From a virus, in IMG/VR virus record IMGVR_UViG_3300043570_001980, positions 124,001 to 188,000 of that record: 64,000 nucleotides of DNA; one strand, written 5' to 3'. The translations under genes and the position numbers were made by a program. Each line of letters begins with the position of its first letter. Positions within the stretch are counted from its first letter, which is position 1. Of the stretch, positions 4,530 to 43,208 are shown piece after piece. The notes under the pieces are model-generated. The model made no database searches. It was given only the letters and a program-made list of their open reading frames with translations, and was not told where the DNA came from.

Positions 4530-4551
4530 GTATTAAATATAAGAAAGCCAT

Positions 4552-4989: not shown

Positions 4990-4992
4990 TTA

Positions 4993-5084: not shown

Positions 5085-5098
5085 AATTGGAGTATTCA

Positions 5099-5383: not shown

Positions 5384-5388
5384 TCTAT

Positions 5389-5464
5389 GGTGACTATAGT
5401 GTAACGGTCAACACCACGGATTGTGATTCCGTTAATATGGGTTCGATTCCCATTAGTTACCCCA
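5389..5464 (+). tRNA. tRNA-His(GTG)
   Basis: Eight-pair acceptor GGTGACTA/TAGTTACC including the His-specific G-1:C73, anticodon loop TTGTGAT, encoded CCA. Confidence 0.94.
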
Positions 5465-5466
5465 AT

Positions 5467-5542
5467 GCCAAGATAGCTCAGTTGGTAGAGCACCGGACTG
5501 AAAATCCGGGTGTGGGCGGTTCGATCCCGTCTCTTGGTACCA
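5467..5542 (+). tRNA. tRNA-Phe(GAA)
   Basis: Acceptor GCCAAGA/TCTTGGT, anticodon loop CTGAAAA, encoded CCA. Its 3' 26 bases recur at 6063-6088. Confidence 0.95.
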
Positions 5543-5543
5543 A
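5518..5543 (+). repeat. Direct repeat copy 1: 3' end of tRNA-Phe
   Basis: 26 bases from the T-arm to two bases past the CCA. The second copy, 6063-6088, differs at one base. The copies flank a reversed gene. Confidence 0.8.
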
Positions 5544-14370: not shown

Positions 14371-14439
14371 GACCAGGTTATTTCAGTTTATAAATAATTT
14401 TGCAACGCCGGCAGGGCCGACGTCAGATCAAATCGACGC

Positions 14440-14469
14440 TTGACATAGTGATGTCTTTACTGTTATACT
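14440..14469 (+). promoter_or_regulatory. Sigma70-like promoter
   Basis: TTGACA (14440-14445), 18 nt, TATACT (14464-14469). A TATAAATA word at 14389-14396 could be an extra late promoter. Confidence 0.75.
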
Positions 14470-14540
14470 ATAACAGAACGCCTACTGTAAGTGGAATTCT
14501 TTCACAAGCATTACAATTCAACTTTTTAAGGAAATATTAC

Positions 14541-15476
14541 ATGATTAAAAAATCATTATCATTTTGTTTTGGTTTATTGCTGTGCGCACTTTCAATGTCC
14601 AGCATGGCTAACCAGCCGCCCAAAGAAATCAAAATTATGGTGCAGTACTCCGCAGGCGGAAGTGCTGACCGTGTTGCTCGTGTGATTGAGTCAGCTATTG
14701 ACAAAAATCGATATCGAGTTCAAATTGAATACAAACTGGGAGCAGGTGGCGGGATTGCCCACGCTCACATGGCCACGCTAAAAACTCCAGGGGAAACTGT
14801 ACTGTTGGTTGCCGGACCTTCTTTGGTTAGTTTGCCTATTTTAAATCCAAGCACCAACGCTTATGATCCAAGCACGGATTTTGTTACTGTAGCGCATCTA
14901 GGAACAGAGCCTTCAGTAATAGTGGTTAATTCTCAAACTGGAATAAAGAATTGGCAGGACTTTGTGACCTATACCAAAACTAGAGAGGTAAACTACGGAA
15001 GCTCAGGGCTCGGTGGTGCTGGGCATACTATATCAGCATTGGTTGCTGGCGACAAAAAAAACTTTGTTCATATACCGTACAAAGGTCCTGCTATAGCAGA
15101 TCTTTTGGGAGGCCAATTAACTTATCTTAACGAATCCGCAATGTTGCTTGATCAGCACATCAGCTCTGGCAAACTAGTGCCTGTGGCTGTGGGTAGTCCT
15201 GCTAGAGTAGACGCTTTTAAAAATGTTCCTACCCTTCAAGAACTCAAAATCAACGATCATCAATACTACAGATGGTCATTGTTAATAGCCAATCGAGGAG
15301 CCGATCCTGAAGTTTTACAACATGTCAGGACCGTAGCCAGTTCTGCAGAAGTTCAACGTGAGTTAAAATCTCTATACATGGCACCTGCAAAAGACTTTTC
15401 CCCAGCTGAGTTCTTAAAAGAAGAGAAGAGAAAATTCTTAATTATTTCTAAACAGCTTAATTTACCAATTCAATGA
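14541..15476 (+). CDS. TctC/Bug-family periplasmic solute-binding protein
   Basis: 311 residues. ATG at 14541 follows AAGGAAA; an upstream in-frame start would lie before the promoter. Signal peptide ends near SMSSMA. Family signatures: IKIMVQYSAGGSADRVAR near the mature N-terminus, VNYGSSGLGGAGH, and HIPYKGPAIADLLGGQL. These receptors feed tripartite tricarboxylate transporters and bind small carboxylates in the periplasm. Burkholderiales carry hundreds, which hints at the host. Metabolic auxiliary gene or repurposed receptor are both possible. Stop overlaps the next start (ATGA). Confidence 0.85.
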   Translation: MIKKSLSFCFGLLLCALSMSSMANQPPKEIKIMVQYSAGGSADRVARVIESAIDKNRYRVQIEYKLGAGGGIAHAHMATLKTPGETVLLVAGPSLVSLPILNPSTNAYDPSTDFVTVAHLGTEPSVIVVNSQTGIKNWQDFVTYTKTREVNYGSSGLGGAGHTISALVAGDKKNFVHIPYKGPAIADLLGGQLTYLNESAMLLDQHISSGKLVPVAVGSPARVDAFKNVPTLQELKINDHQYYRWSLLIANRGADPEVLQHVRTVASSAEVQRELKSLYMAPAKDFSPAEFLKEEKRKFLIISKQLNLPIQ

Positions 15477-25881: not shown

Positions 25882-26850
25882 ATGAAAATATTAGTAACAG
25901 GTGGGTTGGGCCTTATTGGTCATAACGTCATCTCAAGATTACAAAATCTTGACCACACAACCTCAATCATTGATAACAAAACAACCTACGGAATTATTCC
26001 GCAGAGTGAGTTGGATTACTTGATGGAAGAGCGTATTAAAAAAATCCACCATCCTGGTTTTTATAATGCATCTATCGAGACTGCAGACACAGTTGATTAT
26101 GTGATGCAGGTGCAACAACCCGAAGTAGTTGTACACATGGCCAGTTTCCCCCGACAAAAAGTAGTCAATGCCAATCCAGCAAATGGCAGTCGTGTTATGA
26201 TGGAAGGCTTGATCAATCTGCTTGAGAGTGCCAAAAAGCATGGTGTTCGTCGATTTGTTTACATTAGTAGCTCAATGGTATATGGCGACTTTACTGATCA
26301 AGTCGAAGAAGATGCTGTGTGTAACCCACAGGGTCAGTATGGTATTATGAAGCTGGCAGGAGAGTGGTTGGTCAAAGACTATGCTCGACGAACTGGCATG
26401 GAATTTGTTATCATTCGTCCCAGTGCTGTGTACGGACCCTTGGATGTGGAAGATCGTGTGGTTGCTAAATTTATGCTTACTGCCATGCGTGGTGGGACGT
26501 TAAAAGTAAACGGTGCCAACGAAACACTAGACTTTACCTATGTTGACGATGCCGCCGATGGCATTGTCGCCGCGGCCACCATGCCCGGTGCTAAAAATCA
26601 CACATTCAACATTACTAAATCACACTCTGTGTCTTTATTGCAAGCGGCAGAAATGATTGTAAGTATAGTAGGCAGCGGCGAGATCGAGTGTAGAGATAGA
26701 GATGCAGACTTTCCCAGTCGCGGTGCGTTAAATATTAATCAGGCTCGTGCCATGTTAGGTTACGATCCCAAAGTTGATGTTCATGAAGGATTTCAAAATT
26801 ACTACAGCTGGCTTAACAATTCCCTTTACTGGGCTCCGAAAACAGTATAA
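25882..26850 (+). CDS. NAD-dependent nucleotide-sugar epimerase/dehydratase (extended SDR)
   Basis: 322 residues. Rossmann motif TGGLGLIG (6-13), VVVHMAS strand, YISSSMVYGD and the catalytic Tyr153/Lys157 in QYGIMK. IIRPSAVYGP follows. Typical extended SDR acting on dTDP-, UDP- or GDP-sugars. Next to two sugar aminotransferases and a DesII-like enzyme, it probably makes a keto or epimerised sugar for them. The next gene overlaps by about 68 bases. Confidence 0.85.
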   Translation: MKILVTGGLGLIGHNVISRLQNLDHTTSIIDNKTTYGIIPQSELDYLMEERIKKIHHPGFYNASIETADTVDYVMQVQQPEVVVHMASFPRQKVVNANPANGSRVMMEGLINLLESAKKHGVRRFVYISSSMVYGDFTDQVEEDAVCNPQGQYGIMKLAGEWLVKDYARRTGMEFVIIRPSAVYGPLDVEDRVVAKFMLTAMRGGTLKVNGANETLDFTYVDDAADGIVAAATMPGAKNHTFNITKSHSVSLLQAAEMIVSIVGSGEIECRDRDADFPSRGALNINQARAMLGYDPKVDVHEGFQNYYSWLNNSLYWAPKTV

Positions 26851-27880
26851 CAACATCAAAGAAGAAATTCTAGATGCCACAGATCGTGTATTGCGATCTG
26901 GTAATCTCATGAATGGAATCTATACCAAAGAATTTGAAACATGGTTAGCCAAGAAAAACAATAGCAAATATGCTATAACATGTCATAGCGGAACACAGGC
27001 ATTAGAAATAATCGCCCAATACTACATAACAAGAGACTGGGATAGCCGTTGCCATGTGTTAGTTCCAGCAATTACATATCCAGCTACCATCAATGCATTT
27101 TTGCGCTCAGGATGGGACGTTACTATTGTTGATACAGATGCATATGGGATAATGGATCGAGATCATGCCATGCCTGAATTAGTTAATTACAATGCTATTG
27201 TGTTAGTTGGACTGTACGGTGCACCTATACGCAACGGTTGGGAACTTATGGCAAATATCATAATTGAGGATGCCGCACAACATTGGCTAAGTGACCGTGG
27301 TCGACGAAAAGGTCATGCGGCAGCTATTAGTTTTGATCCAATGAAAAATCTAAGTTGTTACGGCAATGGTGGTGCAGTAATCACGGACGACCCAAAGTTA
27401 CACGAATATGCGCTGGGGTGGAGAGACAATGGAAAACCTGGACATACCATGACTGGCAGCAATAGTCGTATGAGTGAAGTTGATTGTGCAACAATGATGG
27501 TTAAAACAAAATACATTGATCAATGGCAACAGCGTAGAAGTAAAATTGCAGGATATTGGATTGAACATTTTTCAAAACAAAACATTAGAACATTAACTGA
27601 CAAATCAAATTATGTCGATCATTGTAATCACAAGTTTGTTGTTGACATAGACAGTCGAAACGAAGTTAAAAAAGAACTAATGCTTAGAAAAATTGAAACA
27701 AAAGTACACTACGAACTTCCGTTACACGAAATTCCATTATATGAATCAATTGTCGGCCCTGGAATGTTTTCTAAAGCCAGTGCATTGGCCAGACGAGTAT
27801 TGAGTTTACCCATATACCCTGAGCTGACAGACTTAGAAGTGGAATACATTGCAGATCAACTGATTGATATAGTTAAATGA
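26783..27880 (+). CDS. DegT/DnrJ/EryC1-family sugar aminotransferase 1
   Basis: 365 residues counted from ATG 26783 (an ATG six bases earlier is possible). IPFTGLRKQYNNIKEEI opens the fold; HSGTQALEI binds PLP phosphate; IIEDAAQHWL has the ring-stacking and Asp residues; FDPMKNLSCYGNGGAV carries the Schiff-base Lys188. These enzymes transfer an amino group from Glu to a keto-sugar nucleotide. Overlaps the epimerase end and the next start. Confidence 0.87.
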   Translation: MKDFKITTAGLTIPFTGLRKQYNNIKEEILDATDRVLRSGNLMNGIYTKEFETWLAKKNNSKYAITCHSGTQALEIIAQYYITRDWDSRCHVLVPAITYPATINAFLRSGWDVTIVDTDAYGIMDRDHAMPELVNYNAIVLVGLYGAPIRNGWELMANIIIEDAAQHWLSDRGRRKGHAAAISFDPMKNLSCYGNGGAVITDDPKLHEYALGWRDNGKPGHTMTGSNSRMSEVDCATMMVKTKYIDQWQQRRSKIAGYWIEHFSKQNIRTLTDKSNYVDHCNHKFVVDIDSRNEVKKELMLRKIETKVHYELPLHEIPLYESIVGPGMFSKASALARRVLSLPIYPELTDLEVEYIADQLIDIVK

Positions 27881-29259
27881 CAAGATTAGGTTACACACAC
27901 AGCAAAGTCGAAGGCCCGACAAATGCAGACATTTTGCACCTAGACCCTGTGTCTCAACAGGTGTGTAAGTTACTGTCAGATGATCCATTTATTACTCAAA
28001 GAGAAATTGCAAAACAGCTATCAATCTCTGCCAACGAACTACTAGTAATATCTAGTAAGATCAGAGAAGATCAACCAGCTCAGAATTACATATTGTATCA
28101 TGGTGGCGGCACAAAATATTGGACCAATACAATCACTCCATTGCTGACAAACGGATCATTACATGCGGCCATTGATCACAGTTACATGTACCCAAATCGT
28201 ATCGGACTGTACACTGGTATGAGCTGTATGTTCTACTGCAACTTTTGCGGACGAAATCCTGTGGCCAAATACGAAAAGAAATTTGAGCAATATGGATTTG
28301 ATGTTTTCAAACAGATTATTGATCAAGACATTAAAACTGATGCATTCTGGGATGACCGATTTCGTATCAGTGGGGGCCTAGAGCCGCTGACCAACAAGTA
28401 TCTAGGCAACATTATTACCTACGGTGCCGAACGTGGATATAAAATGCAATTATACACCAACGGCTATATGATGACTCGGAAATACATAGAACAACATCCA
28501 GGAATGAAAGACCTTCATGCTGTTCGTTTTAGTTTGTATGGTGTTGATGAACAAAGTGCATTTAAAGTAACTCGTCATTCTGAGAGTTATCATCGTATTG
28601 TTGAAAATATCATTGAGTATATCAATTCAACACACAATGTTCGTGTGGGAGTTAATTGGATCATACTGCCTGGCCACTCAAAGGATGTTGTTAAGTTATT
28701 AAACATCATTGACTATATTAATTCACGGACCGTGCGTCCTGTGGATTTTGTAACATTGAGAGAAGACTTTAGTCAAAATGTGCGCATCATCAGCGACGAA
28801 GAAAGAGTGCATCTTGTTGATATTTTTAATTTGATTAAAGATTTTAAAACAAATAAATGGCCGGCCACACATTGGGATTTTGGATATGCACTAGAACCGC
28901 TGGTGCATGGAAAAAATTCTGGACCATTGTCAATGATTTCCTGGAAAGAAATGGTGCCAACTAGCTTTCCTCAAGTGGCTGTAGCAGTTGACGTCAAGGG
29001 AGATGTATATGTCTATCACGAAAGTGGATTCTTAGATCGACCAGGTGCTGAAAGATATATAATTGGAAACACAGTTAACAGTAGCATAGAAACCGTAGTG
29101 CAAGAATTTGTTAACTCTAAAAAAACAATAAGACCGTCGCCACCTGATGTTGGATATTTAGATGCATTCGACCATGTGGTAAGTAGATTAATCAATCAAG
29201 CTCGAGACGATGAAAAATTTGGAATCTCGTGGAACCAAGGACCAGTAAAATGTCGATAA
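27877..29259 (+). CDS. DesII-like radical SAM enzyme (amino-sugar deaminase type)
   Basis: 460 residues. Cluster motif CMFYCNFC with Cys117, Cys121 and Cys124 binds [4Fe-4S] and SAM, followed by GR. The N-terminal about 75 residues contain a helix-turn-helix-like segment (ITQREIAKQLSISANELL). Length, GMSC..CxFCGRNP context and two flanking DegT aminotransferases match dTDP-4-amino-4,6-dideoxyglucose ammonia-lyase (DesII), which removes C4-NH2 to give a 3-keto sugar. The DesII assignment is inference; the radical SAM fold is directly supported. Confidence 0.72.
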   Translation: MTRLGYTHSKVEGPTNADILHLDPVSQQVCKLLSDDPFITQREIAKQLSISANELLVISSKIREDQPAQNYILYHGGGTKYWTNTITPLLTNGSLHAAIDHSYMYPNRIGLYTGMSCMFYCNFCGRNPVAKYEKKFEQYGFDVFKQIIDQDIKTDAFWDDRFRISGGLEPLTNKYLGNIITYGAERGYKMQLYTNGYMMTRKYIEQHPGMKDLHAVRFSLYGVDEQSAFKVTRHSESYHRIVENIIEYINSTHNVRVGVNWIILPGHSKDVVKLLNIIDYINSRTVRPVDFVTLREDFSQNVRIISDEERVHLVDIFNLIKDFKTNKWPATHWDFGYALEPLVHGKNSGPLSMISWKEMVPTSFPQVAVAVDVKGDVYVYHESGFLDRPGAERYIIGNTVNSSIETVVQEFVNSKKTIRPSPPDVGYLDAFDHVVSRLINQARDDEKFGISWNQGPVKCR

Positions 29260-30347
29260 CAATACCATACGCAAATTTATATAGCGAATACCTAGAAGTA
29301 AAAATTCCAGTTGACCAAGCCATTGAACGTTGTATTACAAACAGTTCATTCATTGGCGGGGAAGAAGTTTTAAAATTTGAAACTGCCTGGAAAGACTACA
29401 CGCAGTCAGAAGATTGTGCCGGAGTAAGCAGTGGCACAAGTGCATTGATGTTGTCTTTGTGGGCCGTGGGAGTTCGTCCCAGCGACGAAGTGCTTGTTCC
29501 AAGTATGAGCTTTGTTGCGTCAGCTGAGTGCGCTAGTCAACTAAATGCTCGTCCTCGTTTTATTGACATTGATCAATACTATACTATGGACCTTGATCAA
29601 ATTGAGTCAAAACTTACAAATAAAACCAAAGCAATTATTGTGGTGGATCTTTATGGTCAAACTGTGGATATAAAGAAGCTCAAGGAGATTGCCAACGGCA
29701 TCCCAATCATACAAGATGCGGCTCAAAGTTCTGGATGCAGGTACCTTGGAAATTCAATTGGCAGCCAGGCAGATTTAACATGTTTTAGTTTTTACCCAGG
29801 AAAAAATTTAAGTGCCATGGGAGATGCAGGTGCAGTTACAGGTCGTCAGGAATTAGTTAAACTTGTTAAAATGCTTAGAGATCACGGAAGAAAAGAAAAA
29901 TACGTACACGAGACTATTGGCTGGAATGAAAGACTAGATTCTATGCAGGCAGCGATTTTATCAGCCAAACTAGATCATTTAGATACCTGGAATCAACGAC
30001 GTATAGAAAATGCATCTGTTTATTACAATATGTTATCTAACTGTGACAAAATACAATTGCCAAAAGTAAACAGTAATGTGAGTACCCACGTTTATAATCA
30101 ATTTGTTATTGCAACAGATTGTAGAAATGAATTAAAAGAATTTCTTTCAAGTCGTGGAATTGAAACTGGTATACAATTTCCACTGGCATTACATAAACAA
30201 CCGGTGTATGCTAGAATGGCAGGTACGGATAGTTTTCCAAATAGTGAACGGCTAGCAGACTCGTGTTTGAGTTTGCCAGTACATGCACAAATTACCACTG
30301 CACAGGCAGAAACTGTGGCCAAAGCTGTAATAGATTTTTTTAACTAA
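29250..30347 (+). CDS. DegT/DnrJ/EryC1-family sugar aminotransferase 2
   Basis: 365 residues; ATG 29250 overlaps the radical SAM gene's stop. Motifs: SSGTSALML, IIQDAAQSSGC, FSFYPGKNLSAMGDAGAV with Schiff-base Lys185, and DHGRKEKYVHETIGWNERLD. Closer to the classical ArnB/DesV type than copy 1. In a DesI-DesII-DesV-like order it would aminate the 3-keto product. Its 3' end overlaps 8 bases with the convergent gene at 30340. Confidence 0.87.
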   Translation: MSITIPYANLYSEYLEVKIPVDQAIERCITNSSFIGGEEVLKFETAWKDYTQSEDCAGVSSGTSALMLSLWAVGVRPSDEVLVPSMSFVASAECASQLNARPRFIDIDQYYTMDLDQIESKLTNKTKAIIVVDLYGQTVDIKKLKEIANGIPIIQDAAQSSGCRYLGNSIGSQADLTCFSFYPGKNLSAMGDAGAVTGRQELVKLVKMLRDHGRKEKYVHETIGWNERLDSMQAAILSAKLDHLDTWNQRRIENASVYYNMLSNCDKIQLPKVNSNVSTHVYNQFVIATDCRNELKEFLSSRGIETGIQFPLALHKQPVYARMAGTDSFPNSERLADSCLSLPVHAQITTAQAETVAKAVIDFFN

Positions 30348-31971
30348 CGTTGCCGTAACGTTCTGAGAAATAATTTCTTAACCATTGCCAGTTAAAACTA
30401 TTTTTTCTGTATTCATAGTTGTCTTTATATGCTAGATAAAATTCTCGGCCGTCTTTGGCTCCTATCAATGCCCACTCAGCATAGTCGCCGTCAGCAACTG
30501 TTTCCCAAATATTAATTCTATAATCAGTTTCAATTGTTGGAGTTCGAGACTGTATATCATATAATTTACTGACTTCTCTAAATGCAGTTCTCCAGGTGTG
30601 GTATGGACTTGTGTTAAAATTACCATAGGTGCTGATAATTGGCACAACTTCGTGTGGGAAACTCATTGTATAATCTAGTCCAAATTCCTGGCCAATGTTA
30701 TCTAGTATAAGATTACAATTGTACATGATAACAGCCATTTCTCCGTAGACTAATTTGTTTACACGATTCTCGCTGTAAAAGATATAGTGTTTAGGCTGTT
30801 GAAAATAGTCAGGCTGGAATGTAAAATCAAAATCTGGGTGTAACTCTGTCTTGCCAAATACTGCAAAGTACCAGGGTGTTTGACTAGCCTTAGCAGCCTC
30901 GGCCAGAGCATTCTCCATTCCAACCACACCATGCACACGTTTAGCTCGAGGAAATTTTGTTAACAATTTTTCATAGTTTACATCTGCCTCGGGCTCATCG
31001 TAGCTAATAAACACAATATCTTGCAATGCAAGATCATGACTAATCTGAGTTTTATCAATGTACGGATAGTCGTAGACTTGTGTGTTAATTGTAGACAATG
31101 CTGTTCGTGGAATTAATGCACAATCGTTATTTGGGGACAATGTAATAACTGTCTTAGTTAGTTCTCTCCATAGATTAACAGTTGGGTACACCATTGGAGG
31201 ATTTTGAACAGTAAACAATCCTACCGGACCATAAAAAGAGTCAGGATCTAATGCAGTAACTTGTGTGTCGCAGGAATGTTGTATTACTGGTACTGGCCTG
31301 CGTTTAACTTGCAAGTCAACAAAGTTTAAATCATACCACTCGAGTAATTCTTTACCCTTAATTCTTTCAATAAACGTTGGCACATGCATTAAAAATGTAT
31401 CACCAAACTTTTGTTCATTGCTAGGAAATACATGTAACAACTCTTTTTGCCAAGGATCAGGATGCCATGTAAAATCAAAATTAGTATAATCACAGATTGT
31501 AGAGCAAATCCAAATGTATTCAAGATTGTCATTGCTAGCTGTTTTAGCAATGCGTGTTAGAGTGTCAAGATAATTGTCAAAATATCTAACCACTTTTTTA
31601 ATTGTGATTTTTTCCGACAGAGTATTCAATGCTAATTCTAGAGAATTATCCATATGATCTATTAAGTATATATCGCTAGATTGTCTAGTGAGAACAACCA
31701 TGTCTGTATGGTAATTGGTATCCGTGAATCCAGTTTTTGGTACTAGATAAGTACCCGAATCTTTTTGCCACTGACTAGGAAATACATGCTGTTGATTTGC
31801 TTGCCAGGGTGCTGGTTCCCAAAGAAAATTAAACTCAGAATAGCTCGATAAGTAATTTACGACCCAACAATATCGAGTGCGACTTAGTTCGCAGGCCTGC
31901 TCCGTGCTTGTTACTGCACGTTCATGCACAAACAATCCTGGTTTTTTTCCTATATAGAATATATCAAACAT
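30340..31971 (-). CDS. Three-repeat phage protein with SYDEP domain, 543 aa
   Basis: Three copies of a 60-residue unit: residues about 20-79 (FLWEPAPWQANQQHVFPSQW), 135-198 (FTWHPDPWQKELLHVFPSN) and 350-416 (FTFQPDYFQQPKHYIFYSEN). Before the third comes IVFISYDEPEADVNYEKLL..FPRAKRVHGVVGMENA, shared with the protein at 50067. The SYDEP/KRV.GV pattern suggests a nucleotide-sugar-type (GT-A like) fold, but no DxD is clear. It is the only minus gene in this plus unit; its ATG overlaps the ATG of the next plus gene in CATG. Confidence 0.6.
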   Translation of the reverse strand: MFDIFYIGKKPGLFVHERAVTSTEQACELSRTRYCWVVNYLSSYSEFNFLWEPAPWQANQQHVFPSQWQKDSGTYLVPKTGFTDTNYHTDMVVLTRQSSDIYLIDHMDNSLELALNTLSEKITIKKVVRYFDNYLDTLTRIAKTASNDNLEYIWICSTICDYTNFDFTWHPDPWQKELLHVFPSNEQKFGDTFLMHVPTFIERIKGKELLEWYDLNFVDLQVKRRPVPVIQHSCDTQVTALDPDSFYGPVGLFTVQNPPMVYPTVNLWRELTKTVITLSPNNDCALIPRTALSTINTQVYDYPYIDKTQISHDLALQDIVFISYDEPEADVNYEKLLTKFPRAKRVHGVVGMENALAEAAKASQTPWYFAVFGKTELHPDFDFTFQPDYFQQPKHYIFYSENRVNKLVYGEMAVIMYNCNLILDNIGQEFGLDYTMSFPHEVVPIISTYGNFNTSPYHTWRTAFREVSKLYDIQSRTPTIETDYRINIWETVADGDYAEWALIGAKDGREFYLAYKDNYEYRKNSFNWQWLRNYFSERYGNVS

Positions 31972-33085: not shown

Positions 33086-34245
33086 TGATAAACTTTTGTT
33101 ACGATGAATTGTCTACTCCAAATATTGGATATCCAAATCTAGCAACTCTTAAAGCAGTTCCTTACACACCCAGTTGGAGAAAATTTGATAGCCAATGGCC
33201 TTATACTGTGCCATTGCGTCTTTTATATTATTTTCATTGCTATAAAATTCCTTACAACGTACATCTAGTGTCTAGTGCTCCACAGGGGTCAGTATACCCA
33301 ATATCAATAGGATGGTTTGATTTTCAATGCGATTATTTTTCTTTAATTCCTGTTAATACATTAAAAAAGATAAAAGACAAAGAAATACATGTTTTATTTT
33401 ATTATCACGAAGGCGATAACCCAACTAGAATAACACAAAGACTAGACAACTTGTGTCATCGACATAATATTGATATAAAATGTTACACATTTATAAGTGC
33501 TAATTCAGCGGCTGAAAATTACTTTTCAGACCATGAGTTTTTCTTTCGCTACATCAATAGAGATCAGGTGGCCGTTCCTATAACCACAGAAAAACGTCAG
33601 TATACATTTACTGCACTATGTAGGACTCACAAGTGGTGGAGGGCCACCTGCTTGGCAGACTTAGAACGCAAAGGATTATTAGAAAACAGTTTATGGAGTT
33701 ACAATACAAAATGCGTCATCGATGATAACTTTGATGATAACCCAATTCAAATTGATCACATAGAAATAAGAAATGAACTAGATTTTTTTATTAACAATGG
33801 TCCATATAGTTGTGACGATCAATCAGAAAAAGAACACAATGATCATCACATTGTCAATGCAAGTTTATACACACAATCCTACATACATATTATACTAGAA
33901 ACACATTTTGATGCTGATCAGAGTGGTGGCACATTTTTAACAGAAAAAACATGGAAGGCAATTAAATTTGGTCAGCCTTTTATAATTGTTGGTCCACCAA
34001 ATAGTCTAGCAACTCTTAGAGAACGTGGTTATAAAACCTTTGATCATTGTATTAACAACAAGTATGATAGTATACAGGATAATACTAATCGATGGATGGC
34101 AATTGTTGATACACTAACACAACTCAATTCTAATCCAGAATTGATTTATCAACAATGCATAGAAGATGTCAGACACAACCAGAGATTGTTTTTGTCCACA
34201 GGACATGAAGAGTTAAATAGAATAATAGGAAAATTAAATGTCTAA
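33085..34245 (+). CDS. Putative glycosyltransferase, TEKxW family
   Basis: 386 residues from the TAATG start. It has both family motifs: YTFTALCRTHKWWRATCL..LLENSLWSYN in the middle, and TEKTWKAIKFGQPFIIVG (from Thr286) plus LRERGYKTFDH..NKYDSIQDNTNRW at the C-terminus. It directly follows another member, so the pair may have arisen by duplication. Overlaps the amidinotransferase by 8 bases. Confidence 0.62.
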   Translation: MINFCYDELSTPNIGYPNLATLKAVPYTPSWRKFDSQWPYTVPLRLLYYFHCYKIPYNVHLVSSAPQGSVYPISIGWFDFQCDYFSLIPVNTLKKIKDKEIHVLFYYHEGDNPTRITQRLDNLCHRHNIDIKCYTFISANSAAENYFSDHEFFFRYINRDQVAVPITTEKRQYTFTALCRTHKWWRATCLADLERKGLLENSLWSYNTKCVIDDNFDDNPIQIDHIEIRNELDFFINNGPYSCDDQSEKEHNDHHIVNASLYTQSYIHIILETHFDADQSGGTFLTEKTWKAIKFGQPFIIVGPPNSLATLRERGYKTFDHCINNKYDSIQDNTNRWMAIVDTLTQLNSNPELIYQQCIEDVRHNQRLFLSTGHEELNRIIGKLNV

Positions 34246-35299
34246 TATTATTAATAGTTACACCAGTTGGCAACCACTTGAAGAAGTAATTGTTGGTTGT
34301 GTTTATACGCCAGAATATTTTAACTTTATCCAGGATGAACAAGTTAAAGGTCAAATGACTAAAATACTCGAAGAGTCGGCTGAAGATTTGGATAATCTAC
34401 AAAAAGTAATTGAATCGTACGGAGCAGTAGTTAAGAGGCCAGATCTTCCAAAAATTAAACAATGGCAAAGTTTGCAAATAACAGATCAAGGTGTCCCAAT
34501 CCCACCACTAACACCTAGAGATTGGCAAATTACCCTGGGTGAAAAATTATTAAGAGTATTAAATGTTGCGGAAATGAATACTATATGTCGTGACTACGAA
34601 CAGAAACAACCAGGTAGCATAATTGATCCGCACAATAAAAATTCTGAATCACGCAATAACATATATGACCCTGACCACGTTATGGTAGACGCAGTGGCCA
34701 GTTGTATTGTTCGTGTGGGCACAGATGTATTCTTTGACAACAGCGAGTGGCTAACTGACGGTCAGATGGAATGGATTCGAAATAATGTACTAGATAGTCG
34801 ATATCGAATTCGTAGAGCTGTCACAAATGGGCACGGGGATAGTGTGTTTGCTATATTAAAACCGGGGGTAATATTAAGTACCATGCACGATGGTGATATC
34901 AACTACAAAGAAAATTTTCCCGGATGGGAAGTGTGTAAGATTTGGGACGCAAGTATTTTTGCTGCCATGGAGGTTGGAAAATTTCGTCAAGAAAACTTTA
35001 ATGGACGCTGGTATGTACAAGGTCAGAATCCAACTACTGAGTTTGCTAAGTTTGTTGACACTTATCTGACCAAATGGACTGGGTATGTTAAAGAAACTGT
35101 GTTTGATGTTAACTGTTTGGTGTTAGACGAGCAACATGTTATCTTTAGTTCTTACAACAAGATGGTTTTTGATTTTTGCAAAAAACATAACATTGAACCA
35201 ATAATTTCAGAGTTACGACACAAGTATTTCTTTGACGGGGGCATCAGTTGTTGCACTCAGGATATTCGTCGTCGAGGCGGATTAGAAACTTATCTATAA
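34238..35299 (+). CDS. Glycine/inosamine-type amidinotransferase
   Basis: 353 residues. SYTSWQPLEEVIVG at the N-terminus is the family opening; VTNGHGDSV supplies His199 and Asp201; a further STMHDGD follows; GGISCCTQDIRRRG holds the catalytic Cys338. Arginine:glycine and scyllo-inosamine-phosphate amidinotransferases share this set, moving an amidino group from arginine to an amine. Here the acceptor could be an aminosugar made by the DegT enzymes. The family's usual HC pair reads SC here. It ends 1 nt from the convergent halogenase gene. Confidence 0.82.
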   Translation: MSNIINSYTSWQPLEEVIVGCVYTPEYFNFIQDEQVKGQMTKILEESAEDLDNLQKVIESYGAVVKRPDLPKIKQWQSLQITDQGVPIPPLTPRDWQITLGEKLLRVLNVAEMNTICRDYEQKQPGSIIDPHNKNSESRNNIYDPDHVMVDAVASCIVRVGTDVFFDNSEWLTDGQMEWIRNNVLDSRYRIRRAVTNGHGDSVFAILKPGVILSTMHDGDINYKENFPGWEVCKIWDASIFAAMEVGKFRQENFNGRWYVQGQNPTTEFAKFVDTYLTKWTGYVKETVFDVNCLVLDEQHVIFSSYNKMVFDFCKKHNIEPIISELRHKYFFDGGISCCTQDIRRRGGLETYL

Positions 35300-35300
35300 A

Positions 35301-36539
35301 TTACAACAACTCAAAATGCTTGGCTTTGCTCCACCAATTAAAAGGTGAAAACATTCTTGTTAGTTCCCAGGCACCAACATCGGGTTGGCTGGCCCAAAAA
35401 CGTGTTAGTTCTTTAGTGTTTATTCTGCGTTCAAGGTCCTGATAATACTGCCAATGCTCAGTGTCGTTGCGTTGAGTCAATGTGTAATTGGTCAATACAA
35501 AATCATATAACTGCTTGGTTAGATTCAATGTTGCTTTGTTGTAGACTTTTGGATCTCGGCCAGTGTTGACAAATCTTGCAAACGCTTCAAGATAGTATTG
35601 CACAAGATATATGCTGGTTGCTTCCAATGGTTCCATAAATCCCGATGACAGCCCGACTGCCAGCACATTCTTTTCTAAAGGGTTATGTGAATACATGCTG
35701 TCATACTTGATAACTCGCAGTTTGTCCACATTTGTGTTAGGAAAATATGTTAAGTATTCAGCACGAGCTTGTTCGTCTGTGATAAACTGACTGCTGTAAG
35801 TATAACCACAACCTCTTCTATGAGCTAGCCCTGTGTCCCAGAGCCAGCCAGCTTTGCCTGCATAGGTAATTGTATACTGCGGTTGTGGGCCTGGATCAAG
35901 TTGTTGTGGACAAACCACAGCACGATCATTGAGTATGTCTCCATACTTGCTGAATTTAATTCCAACTTTATCTGCAAAAAGTCTAGCAGGACCTGAACAG
36001 TCAATATAAAAGTCTGCGCTTAATGTTTGCCCGTTGTCTAATAGCAAACCGCTGACATACCCATTTTCGTGTTGTTTGATATCAACAATGTGCGCTTGTA
36101 GATATTTTACTCCGGCTGGGTCAGCGACTCTGCGCTTTAGCATTTGTCCAAACGCTATTGCATCAATATGATAAGCATACTTGCCTTCTTTGACTGGCGG
36201 CAATATTCCCGACTCTAAATAATATTGTCCATTACAATTATTACGATCATAGCAGAAGAAGTGTTTCCATACAGTATCTTTTTCTCTAAGCCAATTGTAA
36301 TGGAAGATCCCTATTTTATGTCTGGCATTTGCTTCAGGCATCCATTCCTCTTCTTTTAATCCAAGAGAATCACAGAAAATACCGATTGCAGGCAAACAAC
36401 TTTCACCTACACCAATGGTAGGAACATCAGGACTTTCAACTAATGTTACATCAAATCCTTGCTTAACCATATAGCATGCACTCATCCAGCCAGCTGTACC
36501 ACCGCCTACAACCACAATGGATTTGATTTGATTGTTCAT
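35301..36539 (-). CDS. Flavin-dependent halogenase (tryptophan-halogenase family), divergent copy
   Basis: 412 residues. FAD motif GGGTAGWM (12-19), GVGESCLP (43-50) and a conserved Lys75 in the active-site tunnel region. The hallmark WxWxIP motif reads WLWDTG (232-237), so the IP part is lost. The rest (RRGCGYTYSS, GFMEPLEATSIYL) is standard. The family uses FADH2 and O2 to make HOCl or HOBr for aryl halogenation. Last gene of the 18-kb minus-strand unit; coupled by ATGA to its paralogue. It may have altered substrate or activity. Confidence 0.85.
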   Translation of the reverse strand: MNNQIKSIVVVGGGTAGWMSACYMVKQGFDVTLVESPDVPTIGVGESCLPAIGIFCDSLGLKEEEWMPEANARHKIGIFHYNWLREKDTVWKHFFCYDRNNCNGQYYLESGILPPVKEGKYAYHIDAIAFGQMLKRRVADPAGVKYLQAHIVDIKQHENGYVSGLLLDNGQTLSADFYIDCSGPARLFADKVGIKFSKYGDILNDRAVVCPQQLDPGPQPQYTITYAGKAGWLWDTGLAHRRGCGYTYSSQFITDEQARAEYLTYFPNTNVDKLRVIKYDSMYSHNPLEKNVLAVGLSSGFMEPLEATSIYLVQYYLEAFARFVNTGRDPKVYNKATLNLTKQLYDFVLTNYTLTQRNDTEHWQYYQDLERRINTKELTRFWASQPDVGAWELTRMFSPFNWWSKAKHFELL

Positions 36540-37795
36540 GTTTGTTCTGCAGGAATCAGTTCATAACCATTTAACATTGCCCACCAACTGCATGGGAAAA
36601 ATAAATTGGTTGAATTCCATTGTTCGACATCTTTTTCTGCCGCTTTTTGTTTGACATAGTTCAGCGTGTTGATCTTTTTCTCAAGATCATTGTAATATCT
36701 CCAGTACTCAGTGTCGGTTCTGCCCGACAATGTATAATGACAAAGAACAAATTTTGCTGTGTGATCAAATACTTTTTTCTGGGATCTGTTAATAGCCCCA
36801 GCAGGACGTTCCCCTGATGCAAACATTTCTGATTGTACAATCATATACTGAGTTAAAAATATACTAGTAGCTTCTAATGGTTCAATAAATCCGCCAGCAA
36901 GTCCAACACAGATAACATTTTGATTTATAGGATTTAAACAAACTTCAGGTACAAATTTTAAAAAATTAATTTTGCTCTTATCGGTTCCTGGATAATGTTC
37001 ACAATATTCTTCAACGGCCTGCTCATCAGATATGTGTTTACTTGAATAAACATAACCACAGCCTCGTCTTGTGGTCAACGGTATTTCCCAAATCCATCCA
37101 GCTGATTTAGCAATTGTTGTTGTATATCTATTAATAGTAGGTAGACTTGGCTGTGCTGTTGTAACTGCACGATCGTTGAGCAAATGTTCGTAACGATGAT
37201 ATTCCATGCCAACTTTGCTTGCTAATAATTTGCGCCAACCAGTACAATCAATGTATAAATCAGCAGACAATTCAAGGCCAGTGCTGGTTATTAATTTTTC
37301 TATCCCTGATTCAGGGTTTCCAATAACATCAGTCACGTGACCAACAATGTGTTTACATCCGTGCTTGAGTGCAGTTGTTTTAGCAATAGTGTCGCCAAAT
37401 TTAAATGCATCAACATGATATCCGTATTCTAATTTTTCACGAGGGGGTAATGTGTTATTTTTTAAGTGCTCAAATTGTTCTTCATGTGTTGTACGATCAT
37501 AGATAAACCAATGCCACCAGTTTGAGTCTCGATTGTTCCAGCCTTCGTGCTTGATTGCCATTTTAAAAACTGAATCACTAAGTGGCATCCATTCTTCTTC
37601 TTCCATGCCTAAAAAATTTGCAAACCAGTTCATAGCAGGTAACGTGCTTTCTCCTACCCCTACTACATTAACGTCGGGACTTTCTATCAGCGTAACTGGG
37701 TATCCTTTTTTACTATAATATCCAGCGGCCATCCAGCCAGCTGTGCCGCCCCCAACTACTAAAATTGATTTATTTTGATTGTTCATATGTTTCAT
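36536..37795 (-). CDS. Flavin-dependent halogenase (tryptophan-halogenase family)
   Basis: 419 residues (a start three codons later is also possible). GGGTAGWM (15-22), GVGESTLP, Lys78 and an intact WIWEIP motif (234-239) followed by RRGCGYVYSS; EPLEATSIFL near 305. All catalytic features are present. A viral halogenase of this family (VirX1, a cyanophage enzyme) is known to act on many aromatic substrates. Overlaps the acyl-adenylate ligase gene by 26 bases, so halogenation may act on an activated aryl acid. Confidence 0.9.
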   Translation of the reverse strand: MKHMNNQNKSILVVGGGTAGWMAAGYYSKKGYPVTLIESPDVNVVGVGESTLPAMNWFANFLGMEEEEWMPLSDSVFKMAIKHEGWNNRDSNWWHWFIYDRTTHEEQFEHLKNNTLPPREKLEYGYHVDAFKFGDTIAKTTALKHGCKHIVGHVTDVIGNPESGIEKLITSTGLELSADLYIDCTGWRKLLASKVGMEYHRYEHLLNDRAVTTAQPSLPTINRYTTTIAKSAGWIWEIPLTTRRGCGYVYSSKHISDEQAVEEYCEHYPGTDKSKINFLKFVPEVCLNPINQNVICVGLAGGFIEPLEATSIFLTQYMIVQSEMFASGERPAGAINRSQKKVFDHTAKFVLCHYTLSGRTDTEYWRYYNDLEKKINTLNYVKQKAAEKDVEQWNSTNLFFPCSWWAMLNGYELIPAEQT

Positions 37796-39260
37796 TTAGC
37801 AAGTACCTTTGTATTTTTCCATTGGTATTTTTGGGTAATTCCTTGGTTACACGAATGTACCTAGGGCACTTAAAATAATCCAATTTGTGTTTTATCAACG
37901 ATTTTAATTGGTGATCAAAATTTTCTGGGATTTCTACATCGGGTGCTAGTACAATGTATGCAACGATTTCTGTTAACCCATCACTGTTCTCAATACCCGA
38001 CACACCAGCTTCAAATACCAATTCGTGCGATATTAATAAATTTTCTATTTCTACTGGGCTGACCCAGTTGGCATTCACTTTTAGCATATCTTTAGAACGC
38101 CCAACAAACTGATATGTATCACCTTGTTGTATAAATTTGTCTCCTGTTTTACACCATTTACCTATAAAAGTTTCCTGGGACTTTTTGGTTTCATTTTGAT
38201 ATCTAAGAGCCATCGACGGACCATCAATATACAATTCTCCCACTTGATTTTGTACAACACAATCATTGGCATCTTTTACCATTCCTGAAAATCCTGGTAA
38301 TAATTTTCCTGACACAATAACCGGTGCTAGTAATTCGGTACTACCGTACCCGTCAACGATAGGTAATTTTGTTAACTCCTGCCATCGTTGTTGCATGGTA
38401 GATGTTATTGCCTCACCAGCACTTACGCACAATCTTAAAGACCCATAGTTAATTGGTAAATTTTCATTTAACAATCCAACATAAAAAGACGGAACTGATC
38501 CAAATAACGTGGGTTTGTGTTTTTTAAATATCCTTGCCGCAGTACTAGGAGTATGTAATTTACCATGCAATATTGTTGTGGCTCCCACAGTCAATGGAGA
38601 TATAAATGCACTACTTATTCCCCAACTAAAAAACAATTTTGATGTGGCAAAAACAATATCGTCGGACTTATAACCTACATCGATCCCGTAGCCTAACCCT
38701 ACACCAATCATTGATCTATGAGAATGTACAACTGATTTAGATTCTCCTGTACTGCCCGAGGTAAACAACCAAAATGCTTCGCCGTCTCTTAGAGTTGTTG
38801 GGGGATCAAAACTTGATGGAGTACTCAATATATTTAGTTGTTCAATAGATAACACATGCTTGGGCTTGTGTGTAGTTTCAGCAAGGTAACTGTCAATGGA
38901 TTGATTTTGTGTTGTTCTATTATTTGCAAAAATAATAACTTTTGCGGCGCTGGATTCAATAAAGTGACAAATAGTTTTTTTAGGCGACCACGGATTTCCG
39001 ATAACCGGAACAAATCCTCCTAATATACAGCCTAGTATTGCAATGCCGCATTCGATAGTGTCCGGCATTAATATTAACACACGATCTTCTCTTGTTAACC
39101 CCATGTCTGTGAGACTTTTAGCAAATCCCCGAGATCTATGCTCAAGCATTTCATAACTAATCGAGCTGGTATCATCAATTAATGCAATCTTATTTCCTAA
39201 TTTTTTTCCAAAAATGTGTTTGGCAAAATTAAATTTAACAGGTATATCTGTTAACTGCAT
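37770..39260 (-). CDS. AMP-binding acyl/aryl ligase (ANL superfamily)
   Basis: 496 residues. Core motifs: TSGSTGESK (167-175), GYGSTE, CKTGDKF, GRSKDMLKVNANWVSP and the C-terminal catalytic Lys482 in TNGKIQR. Overall pattern is nearest benzoate-CoA-ligase-type enzymes, which adenylate a carboxylic acid and pass it to CoA or a carrier thiol. No carrier protein is visible nearby. Position between carbamoyltransferase and halogenases suggests it activates an aryl or short acyl group for attachment. Substrate unknown. Confidence 0.82.
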   Translation of the reverse strand: MQLTDIPVKFNFAKHIFGKKLGNKIALIDDTSSISYEMLEHRSRGFAKSLTDMGLTREDRVLILMPDTIECGIAILGCILGGFVPVIGNPWSPKKTICHFIESSAAKVIIFANNRTTQNQSIDSYLAETTHKPKHVLSIEQLNILSTPSSFDPPTTLRDGEAFWLFTSGSTGESKSVVHSHRSMIGVGLGYGIDVGYKSDDIVFATSKLFFSWGISSAFISPLTVGATTILHGKLHTPSTAARIFKKHKPTLFGSVPSFYVGLLNENLPINYGSLRLCVSAGEAITSTMQQRWQELTKLPIVDGYGSTELLAPVIVSGKLLPGFSGMVKDANDCVVQNQVGELYIDGPSMALRYQNETKKSQETFIGKWCKTGDKFIQQGDTYQFVGRSKDMLKVNANWVSPVEIENLLISHELVFEAGVSGIENSDGLTEIVAYIVLAPDVEIPENFDHQLKSLIKHKLDYFKCPRYIRVTKELPKNTNGKIQRYLLNETYEQSK

Positions 39261-40747
39261 ACAGTTACTCCATATAATTTTTCAAATCTATCAGCATCGA
39301 CTCTATCATTAACCATGGGCTCTCCACGTATGTTTAAGCTGGTGTTTAACAGCATTGGGCAACCAGTCATCACGTACCACTTTGCCAACAATTGTCTAAT
39401 TCCCGATCCATCATTCGGAACTGTCTGAACACGACTAGTGCCATCAACGTGAACGATAGCAGGAAATATGTGAGGATGCCTGCAACGAGCGATGACTTGC
39501 ATATACCTACTGTCACTGAAGCCACGAGGCATATCAAAATACATATCAACATGCTCCTCCAGAATGACTGGCGCAAATGGTCTGAATTTTTGTCTGCGTT
39601 TGATTTCATTTACACGATCCTTTATTTCTGATCCTCTTGGGTCGGCCAATAAACTGCGGTTGCCCAGTGCTCTAGGACCAAACTCTGCTCTACCGCTAGC
39701 CACTCCAACAATTTGATTTTTAAGTAGCTCATCAAGTATACTGTTAACTGGATACGGTCCAGGAATGTCATGCCCAAGAAAAGCACTAGTCCAATTAACT
39801 CTGTGACCGTATGCCAAAGCGGCAGCGCCAAGACTGCTGCCTGCGTCGCCAGGATTAGGCATAATCCAAATATTATTAAAATAGTTTCCAAGATGTCTAT
39901 TTGCAAGGCAATTTAATGCCACGCCTCCCATGTATACAAGATTATCGCTCCAATTTAAAGACTTGGCACGTTTCATTACATTGACAATTAATTCTTCTAC
40001 TAGCTGTTGTGCTGATGCGGCAATGTCTTCATTGGTGGCAGCTTCTAAGTAAGTTGCATCTAATCCAGTGTGAAGATTATCTTTAAACTTGATAGTATCA
40101 AGATCTTCAATAAGACCCTGATTCATTTTTTCATACCACGAGGATTTCCCCCATCCCGACATGCCCATGGTAATGTATTCTTCGTCCATTGGGTGTAGTC
40201 CAATACGTTTAGTTATTGCACTATAAAACAACCCTATACTATGAGGATACCGTTGGCTCCACAACTTTTTATAAGTTGCTCGATGTGTAGAATCGTACAT
40301 TGCTCCCCAGATACTAATAGTATCCCATTCACCTATTGCGTCTATAACGACAACGGTGGCCTTGGTAAAGGGACTGGTTTGGAATCCTGCGGCAGCATGG
40401 GACAAATGATGTCCAGCATGTAAAAATAATGGCTCTTTATGAAAAGATACAGGTACATGTTTATGCAAATACTTACGAACAGTAATATCGGTAAAATCCA
40501 ACGCTTCATTATATTGTCCTGCGTAAAAGTTTCTTAGCTTTTTAAGCCAAGGTTTTTCGTAAAAAGCAACAACGTCTGGCTCGCCATACGATAATGCCTC
40601 TGCTACCAAGTCTTGATTGATATGAGGATCATGCTTGCTTTTACTGTAGCGTTCGGCGTGGCCGGCAAATAAAATATCGCCTTGATTAGCAATTACCGAT
40701 ACGGCAGCGTCATGAAAACCAGCACTTATACCTAGGTATTTTTTCAT
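39251..40747 (-). CDS. NodU/CmcH-family O-carbamoyltransferase
   Basis: 498 residues. YrdC-like/Kae1-type motifs HAGHHLSHAAAGF (His113, His114, His117 bind Fe and carbamoyl-AMP), IDAIGEWDT, GGVALNC (274-280) and the C-terminal FGPRALGNRS (356-362). Such enzymes move carbamoyl from carbamoyl phosphate, via AMP, to a hydroxyl of sugars or antibiotics. A phage relative is reported to carbamoylate 5-hydroxymethylcytosine in DNA. Coupled by ATGA to a 33-aa gene upstream. Slightly shorter than NodU (about 560). Confidence 0.9.
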   Translation of the reverse strand: MKKYLGISAGFHDAAVSVIANQGDILFAGHAERYSKSKHDPHINQDLVAEALSYGEPDVVAFYEKPWLKKLRNFYAGQYNEALDFTDITVRKYLHKHVPVSFHKEPLFLHAGHHLSHAAAGFQTSPFTKATVVVIDAIGEWDTISIWGAMYDSTHRATYKKLWSQRYPHSIGLFYSAITKRIGLHPMDEEYITMGMSGWGKSSWYEKMNQGLIEDLDTIKFKDNLHTGLDATYLEAATNEDIAASAQQLVEELIVNVMKRAKSLNWSDNLVYMGGVALNCLANRHLGNYFNNIWIMPNPGDAGSSLGAAALAYGHRVNWTSAFLGHDIPGPYPVNSILDELLKNQIVGVASGRAEFGPRALGNRSLLADPRGSEIKDRVNEIKRRQKFRPFAPVILEEHVDMYFDMPRGFSDSRYMQVIARCRHPHIFPAIVHVDGTSRVQTVPNDGSGIRQLLAKWYVMTGCPMLLNTSLNIRGEPMVNDRVDADRFEKLYGVTVCS

Positions 40748-40846: not shown

Positions 40847-41935
40847 TTAGTTCTTTCGATTGATTATGTTTATCTGACGGTCTATAAAGTCTGAGTCTGA
40901 CCAATGATAGTCGTATATAGCACAACTACTGCTGGTACTCACGCTGTATACATCTAGACTATTATTTAATTGATTCCAAACGGTCAGGTAATCTTCTGTG
41001 TTAAAACTACGTTTTAAATCTACTTGTCCCACTTGAGGATGCCCAATGGTTAATAGTTTATCATTAGGGTCAAACCCATTGACTATTAACCATTCTTTAA
41101 ATTCAGCTAGTTTAATTTGTTGCCAGCTGTGATTACCTGGATTATTTGCCCACTCAATATCAAAATCTCCAGCGGCTTCAGTCTGACTGCGCATAGAGGT
41201 AGTGACTAATTCACTAACTCGACTGTCACGGCCTTCGTCCATGAATACTTCCCAATGATGTTTTCCAATTGCCTTGTTAACTCCAACAAACACTCCTCCA
41301 AGACTGCGGTTTATTGTTTCAATACCAAATAAATCATAGTCATTTTCGTCAAGAGTAAATCTTGGCGCATTTAACCAACACATTAGTTGGCTGGGTCGTT
41401 GCCACTCAGGTGCTTCTATTTCTTTACGATAACTCAATGCCCATGTTTCAAACTCATGACAGAGTAAATTTAATTGTCTTATATGCCAGCGTATGTCAGC
41501 ACTGGCGTGATTAAAATAAACCGACATGCTACCGCTTACGCCCTGAAGGTCTTCAAAATAACGATGCAACCAATTCAAGCGTTCATGAATCATATTCCTA
41601 CCAACTGTTCTTGATCCTACAGGATCATCAGTGATAGTGTTTTCCATTGTAAAATAATCATCAATGGTATATCCAATATTTGCTTGATTAATTGCATTTA
41701 TTGATTTGTTTACCTGTTCAAGAATGTACCACCCATTGCGCTGACTTTGAGTAAATCCTAAAAAACAAAAATTTTTTTCTAAATGAGAGTCATTTGTTAA
41801 CAAACCGTTTAATGCATTTAACCATTTACGAGATAATGAACTATCATAGACGTCAATATAAACTGAGTGAAGATTATCTGTATTTCTATTTTTAAGTTCA
41901 ATTTTAATCTGTTCTAATATTTTTCCACCAGCCAT
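40847..41935 (-). CDS. Conserved phage protein of unknown function, 362 aa
   Basis: Soluble protein with GGVFVGVNKAIGKHHWEVFMDEGRD near residues 212-236, rich in Trp, His and Asp, plus FLGFTQSQRNGWYILEQVNK. I know no function; similar sequences with the GVNKAIGKHHWEVF pattern occur in large phages near carbamoyltransferase and radical SAM genes (recollection). It overlaps the neighbouring radical SAM gene by 32 bases, a sign of linked expression. Confidence 0.6.
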   Translation of the reverse strand: MAGGKILEQIKIELKNRNTDNLHSVYIDVYDSSLSRKWLNALNGLLTNDSHLEKNFCFLGFTQSQRNGWYILEQVNKSINAINQANIGYTIDDYFTMENTITDDPVGSRTVGRNMIHERLNWLHRYFEDLQGVSGSMSVYFNHASADIRWHIRQLNLLCHEFETWALSYRKEIEAPEWQRPSQLMCWLNAPRFTLDENDYDLFGIETINRSLGGVFVGVNKAIGKHHWEVFMDEGRDSRVSELVTTSMRSQTEAAGDFDIEWANNPGNHSWQQIKLAEFKEWLIVNGFDPNDKLLTIGHPQVGQVDLKRSFNTEDYLTVWNQLNNSLDVYSVSTSSSCAIYDYHWSDSDFIDRQINIINRKN

Positions 41936-43208
41936 ATATTTTGTTATCCTGTTGTAGTATTTGGTCTAGCCCAAATGTATCATTTCTAATAGATTCCAAT
42001 TGTAACATTCTGAACTTTCCTCTTGCAAGACCTTTTTCCCAGGTGTCGGGCCATTGTTCTGCAAAAGTTGGGCGTGATTTTAGTTGTAGTAACACATCCT
42101 TCAACGCACCTGGAGGTAAGTTAGTTACTAGACGATCTACTGTGCTGTCTAATAACTCACGAGGCAATGCCAATGGACTCATAATGATGTCCGGGCTAAA
42201 ACTAAAAATCACCTTGGCTAATATATCAACCCCAAGCTCATTTGATAACTGCTGTATATTACCAACTTCAAATAGTCCAGGTAATGTGAGAGTAAAATCA
42301 ATTCGCATTTGCCTGCGATGTTTTTGTATCTCAATTCCCTGTTTAAAGTTTTTTAGAAAGGTGGAATATTCAAGCCCTGTGCGGATGTATTCTCCTGTGG
42401 CTCCTGTTCCGTCGAGGCTGGCACAGATTTGCCAATCGCGAACATTAGATAAAATATCACGATATAGATTAATACCCCGAAAATCAACGCGACTAAGATT
42501 GGTGTTATACCTGGCATATAATTGTCCTCCATCATTTAATTCAATAATACGTTTCATATACCGCCAATGTTGTTCATACATTAGAGGTTCACCGCCTACC
42601 CAATAGACTTCTTCAACTCTGTGTTCTTCTACTGCTTCTGCAAATTCTTTTTCAATTTGCGTGTCCTGGAATTTACTAATTTCTGTTCTTACTGCTGGTT
42701 TCATCCAGTTATTTCTTGGATCCGAATAGTCAATAAGATTGTGTTGACGTTCTTCGCTTTCCCAACTACTAGACAACATATCCCCACACATGCGACATTT
42801 GAAATTGCAAAGATTGCTAAATCTATAATCCCAACTTATTGGTTTCATAGTTGTAGATCCGTTAGGCTGTGTTTTTTCCATGGCCTCTTCATAACGATGT
42901 TTGAATAGGTGCCAGAAATATGTTCGATAGACATCAGTATTTAACAGTTTACTGTTACAAACATCACATTCGGGCAAAATTTCTCCTGCCATCATACGTT
43001 GTCTAACACTTTTCATATGATCGCTATTCCAGTGTTGATCTAGTGTGAGTGGAATATATTTTCCTGTGCCTGCTGATGTGTCAATGTACTGTTGAAAATT
43101 TTGTGCAGGTTCGCGGCTAGCACAACACATTCTGCGTTCGGTTTGAGGACTTAGATAGGTATGCACCCAGGGTGCCATACACAAAGATTCAGGTTTATTC
43201 ATAAGCAA
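41904..43208 (-). CDS. Twitch-type radical SAM protein 1
   Basis: 434 residues. N-terminal auxiliary-cluster cysteines: Cys10, CC at 28-29, and CDVC (81-84). Radical SAM motif Cys134-xxx-Cys138-xx-Cys141 in FSNLCNFKCRMCG, then WVGGEPLMYEQHW for SAM binding. Large insert of about 35 residues before the SAM core. Belongs to the CC subtype with proteins 2 and 3. Substrate unknown; SPASM/twitch relatives modify peptides, sugars or anaerobic enzymes. Confidence 0.85.
   Translation of the reverse strand: MLMNKPESLCMAPWVHTYLSPQTERRMCCASREPAQNFQQYIDTSAGTGKYIPLTLDQHWNSDHMKSVRQRMMAGEILPECDVCNSKLLNTDVYRTYFWHLFKHRYEEAMEKTQPNGSTTMKPISWDYRFSNLCNFKCRMCGDMLSSSWESEERQHNLIDYSDPRNNWMKPAVRTEISKFQDTQIEKEFAEAVEEHRVEEVYWVGGEPLMYEQHWRYMKRIIELNDGGQLYARYNTNLSRVDFRGINLYRDILSNVRDWQICASLDGTGATGEYIRTGLEYSTFLKNFKQGIEIQKHRRQMRIDFTLTLPGLFEVGNIQQLSNELGVDILAKVIFSFSPDIIMSPLALPRELLDSTVDRLVTNLPPGALKDVLLQLKSRPTFAEQWPDTWEKGLARGKFRMLQLESIRNDTFGLDQILQQDNKIYGWWKNIRTD

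Follow-up and report, generated by a model that had tools for sequence, protein, structure and literature searches.

DesII is a model radical-SAM deaminase and, to our knowledge, was previously known only from macrolide-producing actinobacteria. In the erythromycin pathway, the radical-SAM homologue is EryCV, and EryCII is a P450-like helper of the glycosyltransferase; the name 'EryCII-like', used in an earlier note on the present DNA, should thus read EryCV. The structural study of the Streptomyces venezuelae enzyme (PDB 8HZV/8HZY; profile TIGR04426, which includes EryCV) names C141/C145/C148, G187–E190, R238/S240/Y242, D323/Y324, E408 and D456, with E408 as the proposed general base and a D456A variant that is inactive; the E408A and E408Q variants were still active, and the mutants gave no clear answer on the switch between deamination and dehydrogenation (PMC11434129). 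DesI (PDB 2PO3; TIGR04427) is a C4-aminotransferase and DesV (PDB 2OGA) a C3-aminotransferase; here the C3 or C4 assignments of DesV, WbpE and PerA are those of PMC7725333. Here we describe a viral branch of the DesII family, located within a conserved sugar module, which is new for this known enzyme family.

A sugar module in a jumbo-phage genome

The analysed stretch of 64,000 nucleotides (hereafter referred to as the window) covers positions 124001 to 188000 of a 341,990-bp IMG/VR virus record. This 342-kb jumbo-phage record is a virus, as indicated by its IMG/VR entry, the 25 tRNAs and tmRNA in the window, and the virion structural and tail-fibre genes that PHROG matches locate at 54–64 kb of the window. 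An AAA ATPase encoded upstream of the sugar module shares 52% identity with its counterpart in PA5oct-type Pseudomonas jumbo phages. The phage also encodes a TctC/Bug-type periplasmic solute receptor (14400–15476; PF03401), which, together with the tmRNA tag ANDSQFALAA, we take as a hint of a betaproteobacterial host, and a D-alanyl-D-alanine carboxypeptidase with its own signal-like N terminus (6361–7140; PF00768). No Rfam family matched within 20–36 kb of the window.

The module consists of four plus-strand genes arranged head to tail, with overlaps of a few to about 70 bases and the Pfam domains PF01370, PF01041, PF04055 and PF01041 in this order. The first gene (25882–26850) encodes a GalE-like SDR sugar epimerase/reductase (152.7 bits), and the second (26783–27880) encodes AT1, a DegT-family PLP sugar aminotransferase (195.9 bits) with its lysine in an SFDPMKN motif; the ATG at 26783 is the start given in the earlier note, and the open reading frame opens at a TTG at 26774. 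The third gene (27877–29259) encodes a DesII-family radical-SAM enzyme, which by sequence and model is a probable NDP-amino-sugar ammonia-lyase. The fourth (29250–30347) encodes AT2, a DesV-like PLP sugar C3-aminotransferase, which starts at the ATG at 29250 or at the GTG at 29229 that opens its reading frame. The open reading frames and Pfam matches thus bear out the positions, the overlaps and the layout of an epimerase followed by a radical-SAM gene between two PLP aminotransferases, as previously described.

The module has a GC content of 0.399, identical to that of the window, and every module gene is under purifying selection, with dN/dS values of 0.015–0.08 against the related contig L003 (0.015 for the SDR gene). 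The order SDR, AT1, radical SAM and AT2 is repeated in L002–L006 and L088, which, together with the low dN/dS throughout, argues against a chance arrangement.

A DesII-family protein in a virus

The test proposed for refuting the DesII assignment, a profile search placing the radical-SAM protein outside that group together with missing active-site residues, did not do so: DesII was by far the best NCBIfam match (TIGR04426, 339.7 bits; next family, 41 bits). This score lies under the equivalog cut-off of 450 bits, and the sampled actinobacterial DesII members score 780–866 bits. Among all PDB sequences, the sole strong match is DesII 8HZV (E = 2.4e-68), and the identity to DesII is about 31%. 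The AlphaFold model (pLDDT 90.6), for which 36 window and locus sequences served as input, superposes on 8HZV with TM-scores of 0.88/0.85 and a root mean square deviation of 1.7 Å, as compared with TM-scores of 0.42–0.46 for the next folds, and contains the N-terminal helical, radical-SAM and C-terminal hairpin domains of DesII.

Residue numbering was anchored on a 485-residue actinobacterial DesII, in which all of the reported positions fit. The window protein keeps 13 of the 14 positions, and the exception is a conservative Y-to-F change (Y324 to F298). The CX3CX2C motif occupies exactly the residues claimed earlier (117 to 124), with C117, C121 and C124 (codons at 28225–28248) corresponding to the [4Fe-4S] ligands C141, C145 and C148 of DesII. 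The SAM motifs are GGLE (G166–E169), R217/S219/Y221 (DesII R238/S240/Y242) and D297 (D323), and the residues corresponding to E408 and D456 are E382 (29020–29022) and D429 (29161–29163), respectively. At two further positions, all of the sampled actinobacterial DesII sequences have another residue: Y184, just before GGLE, is replaced by R163, and R407, beside E408, by H381. Among solved structures, DesII is therefore nearest in both sequence and fold, and, judged by profile, residues and predicted structure, the window protein belongs to the DesII family as a viral representative. It shares with DesII the three-domain fold, the CX3CX2C and SAM motifs, E408, D456 and the pairing with a DesV-like aminotransferase, whereas, unlike DesII, it resides in viruses that have no macrolide pathway. 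A distinct viral branch with a complete active site offers natural variants around the switch between deamination and dehydrogenation.

Viral lineages and gene neighbourhoods

Four viral scans, three with protein or alignment queries and one with an alignment of lineage g3, identified the DesII-like family in 37 viral contigs besides that of the window. The family comprises four lineages: g1 (the window, L002–L007 and L050–L053), g2 (L084–L089), g3 (L091–L100) and g4 (L127–L133 and L135), the last with proteins of 350–366 residues that lack the N-terminal domain. L090 and L054 fall outside these lineages; in L054, two diverged DesII-like genes (1326–2816 and 4549–5784) flank an opposite-strand C4-type aminotransferase gene, and one copy has lost E408. 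A tblastn search of deposited phages with three viral queries gave no match, and a tblastn search of plasmids matched three Streptomyces plasmids and none outside Streptomyces.

In the DesII tree, a branch with 100/100 support separates the 30 sampled actinobacterial sequences, which are its cellular rows, from every virus, and the window protein falls in g1; as the tree is unrooted, it does not show the direction of transfer. The CX3CX2C and GGLE motifs, the R/S/Y ribose motif, D323, E408 and D456 are kept in nearly every viral row. The sampled rows retain the catalytic residues except for L054_1326, in which E408 is replaced by G, and replacements occur at the L189 and Y324 positions. This recurrence in 37 further contigs and four lineages, along with the conserved gene order, the GC content equal to that of the window and dN/dS values below 0.1, makes it extremely improbable that the locus results from mis-assembly of the metagenome or is an antibiotic gene fragment that was captured recently and has no function, an explanation for which only the oddity of the finding speaks.

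At all g1 and g2 loci, a DesV-like aminotransferase gene is found no more than about 3 kb from the radical-SAM gene, and an SDR gene is present wherever the contig extends far enough. The AT1 gene is more variable: it is present in the window, L002–L007 and L088, takes a diverged form in L085 and is absent beside the radical-SAM gene in L052/L053, L084, L086/L087 and L089. In g3, Gfo/Idh/MocA-type oxidoreductase genes adjoin the DesII-like gene, and five contigs encode, within 5–8 kb, a GDP-mannose 4,6-dehydratase (Gmd) that exceeds the TIGR01472 cut-off (417–430 versus 415 bits). L093, L094 and L097 encode a DegT enzyme that the aminotransferase tree places on the C4 side, and the closest family of those in L094 and L097 is RfbH/PseC. 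Separately, a conserved short DegT family of about 205–239 residues occurs in L018 (9987–10688; G000, about 106 kb) and L132 (8234–8938). In the window phage its gene adjoins a B12-binding radical-SAM gene, and in L132 it is found close to the DesII-like gene.

The g1–g3 genes thus lie among nucleotide-sugar genes, which, together with the fully kept active site of the window protein, speaks against a different substrate for the same fold, namely radical deamination, dehydration or epimerization of a glycan-bound or non-nucleotide sugar. Such a substrate would accommodate the scores under the DesII equivalog cut-off, the g4 proteins without an N-terminal domain, encoded mostly outside sugar clusters, and the two L054 copies with their E408-to-G change; we consider it quite improbable.

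Aminotransferases, sugar supply and a candidate pathway

Both PDB similarity and the trees support AT2 as a DesV-like C3-aminotransferase. Its best match among solved structures is DesV (E = 1.3e-75), followed by QdtB (6e-68), WbpE (4e-61), PerA (1.5e-41) and DesI (1e-21); its lysine motif, SFYPGKN, is that of actinobacterial DesV, and AT2 itself lies within its own viral clade.

AT1 shares with DesI the DegT family and the gene position, and its PLP residues are kept, but it scores 65.2 bits against a cut-off of 650 with the DesI profile TIGR04427, and its best solved relatives are the C3-aminotransferases QdtB and DesV (QdtB, E = 4.5e-38; DesI 2PO3, 8.5e-11). Profile and PDB similarity rule out its identity as DesI, and by sequence similarity AT1 would group with C3-aminotransferases. 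The surroundings of the PLP lysine are a suggestive sequence marker for C3 or C4 specificity (SFYP in DesV; SFH in DesI, WecE and ArnB), with PerA-type enzymes breaking the rule, and His196 of the SFH motif lies beside the substrates (PMC5936713); AT1 has SFDPMKN where DesI has SFHxTK. Placement of AT1 with the C4-aminotransferases gave AU-test p values of 0.47 with fewer rows and 0.026 with more rows, so that the trees disagree on its specificity. In the relative G009 (L053), a DegT gene 20 kb from the radical-SAM gene has a DesI-like MHATK motif and groups with DesI (88/98), on a long branch. Of the DesI–DesII–DesV triad proposed earlier, the DesII and DesV members hold and the DesI member, which also lies outside the conserved core, does not; in sequence terms, the module is a DesII–DesV-like pair with an SDR rather than a clear triad. 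The 4-amino substrate is not assured, given that AT1 is not DesI-like and is missing beside the gene in several relatives.

The SDR carries ISSSMVYG and, in place of the TDE motif of 4,6-dehydratases, YGIMK; it scores 117 bits with TIGR01181 (dTDP-glucose 4,6-dehydratase) against a cut-off of 365, which rules out DesIV. The other two PF01370 proteins of the window genome are GalE-like. Gmd is encoded in the window phage, 126 kb from the module, and in a 345-kb relative (404–407 bits, just under the TIGR01472 cut-off). No PF00483 (RmlA/DesIII-type nucleotidylyltransferase) was found in the 342-kb record, and the host may supply this activity; as regards the N,N-dimethyltransferase DesVI, SAM methyltransferases are present elsewhere in the genome. 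On this gene content, a 4-keto-6-deoxy sugar of the phage's own would be GDP-linked and the host would have to provide any TDP sugar, so the TDP nucleotide implied by the desosamine analogy does not follow.

With moderate confidence, we propose that viral synthesis runs through a nucleotide-linked 3-keto-4,6-dideoxy sugar, formed by radical deamination, to a 3-amino-3,4,6-trideoxy sugar, formed by AT2, which glycosyltransferase-like neighbours would probably use for glycosylation. The analysis establishes the family membership and fold, the conservation of the catalytic residues and of the operon, and purifying selection; we infer the substrate, the order of the steps, the nucleotide (TDP or GDP) and the destination. 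A 4-amino substrate would be supplied by AT1 or the host, and the SDR may set or reduce one ring position. Using its [4Fe-4S] cluster and SAM, the radical-SAM enzyme would abstract the C3 hydrogen of a nucleotide-linked 4-amino-4,6-dideoxyhexose, with elimination of the C4 ammonia yielding the 3-keto-4,6-dideoxy sugar. AT2 would then transaminate C3 to give a 3-amino-3,4,6-trideoxyhexose, and the neighbours would transfer it, probably to a putative target on the virion (tail fibre) or in a host-surface glycan. Gmd, as a source of 4-keto-6-deoxy sugar in both near-complete genomes and the five g3 contigs, counts for the deaminase pathway; the missed TIGR04426 cut-off, an AT1 that is absent or not DesI-like, R163 and H381, and the distance to Gmd count against it.

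The reaction cannot be read from the family fold, as DesII itself converts TDP-quinovose into the 3-keto sugar by dehydrogenation only (PMC11434129). The viral enzyme could likewise act as a C3 dehydrogenase on an SDR-made 6-deoxy (4-hydroxy) NDP-sugar, with AT2 forming a 3-amino-3,6-dideoxyhexose and AT1 as an accessory. This main alternative would explain why AT1 is dispensable, since the constant set is the SDR, the radical-SAM enzyme and AT2. However, an oxidation that uses up SAM is costly where NAD enzymes suffice, the strict retention of the deamination-tied E408 and D456 is left unexplained, and an AT1-family gene is retained in the window, L002–L007, L085 and L088; we regard a dehydrogenase as unlikely.

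From its resemblance to desosamine biosynthesis, the module probably equips the virus to make a rare amino sugar itself. The deaminase pathway that we favour would mean that rare amino sugars of the 4-deoxy type are built by phages, and it connects the sugar chemistry of antibiotics with viral glycans in a way that can be tested. Viruses might even hold much of the DesII-type diversity, acting on GDP-linked sugars, with the macrolide DesII as one cellular offshoot. In that case, GDP-mannose would be converted by the phage Gmd into GDP-4-keto-6-deoxymannose, from which GDP-perosamine would form, followed by radical deamination and C3 transamination; we hold this joint proposal as tentative and rather doubtful. 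The window phage, the 345-kb relative and the five g3 contigs share Gmd with the Gmd/Per route to GDP-perosamine, and three g3 loci have the DegT enzyme on the C4 side. We know of no pathway that joins this route to a DesII-type deaminase, and a literature search pairing 'GDP-perosamine' with 'radical SAM' found no paper with both terms. If true, GDP-linked radical deamination would be a previously undescribed nucleotide-sugar route that decorates virions or host glycans.

The minus-strand gene at 30340–31971 encodes a putative repeat-domain GT-A glycosyltransferase-like partner, conserved near the radical-SAM gene in L002–L007, L050–L054, L084–L086 and L089. Foldseek returned glycosyltransferase matches with TM-scores of about 0.2 for a weak model (pLDDT 75, pTM 0.44), which makes the GT-A label tentative; with the nearby tail-fibre genes, the modelled protein suggests virion glycosylation. 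The partner proteins (window, L005, L050, L086 and L089) differ in how many repeated domains they contain and accordingly range from 430 to 1139 residues, a pattern suggestive of repeat gain and loss.

Further enzymes are encoded beyond the module. Five consecutive radical-SAM proteins (41904–49508), some with an N-terminal SPASM/twitch domain, lie after the sugar module and ahead of the tail-fibre genes; this placement is conserved in many relatives, and the proteins have distant kin in Vibrio phages K566/K567. A NodU/CmcH-type carbamoyltransferase (39251–40747) is a neighbour of the module that most g1 and g2 phages share. The amidinotransferase at 34238–35299, which has glycine amidinotransferase, SxtG and StrB-type enzymes among its relatives (E values down to 1e-12) and carries a C-terminal Cys motif, could amidinate an amino sugar. 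It is followed by two tandem tryptophan-halogenase-family flavoproteins (35301–37795; PF04820, about 310 bits each), which are represented by a single copy in L003/L004. A benzoate-CoA ligase-family AMP ligase adjoins them, with a score of 372.6 bits for a cut-off of 375.25.
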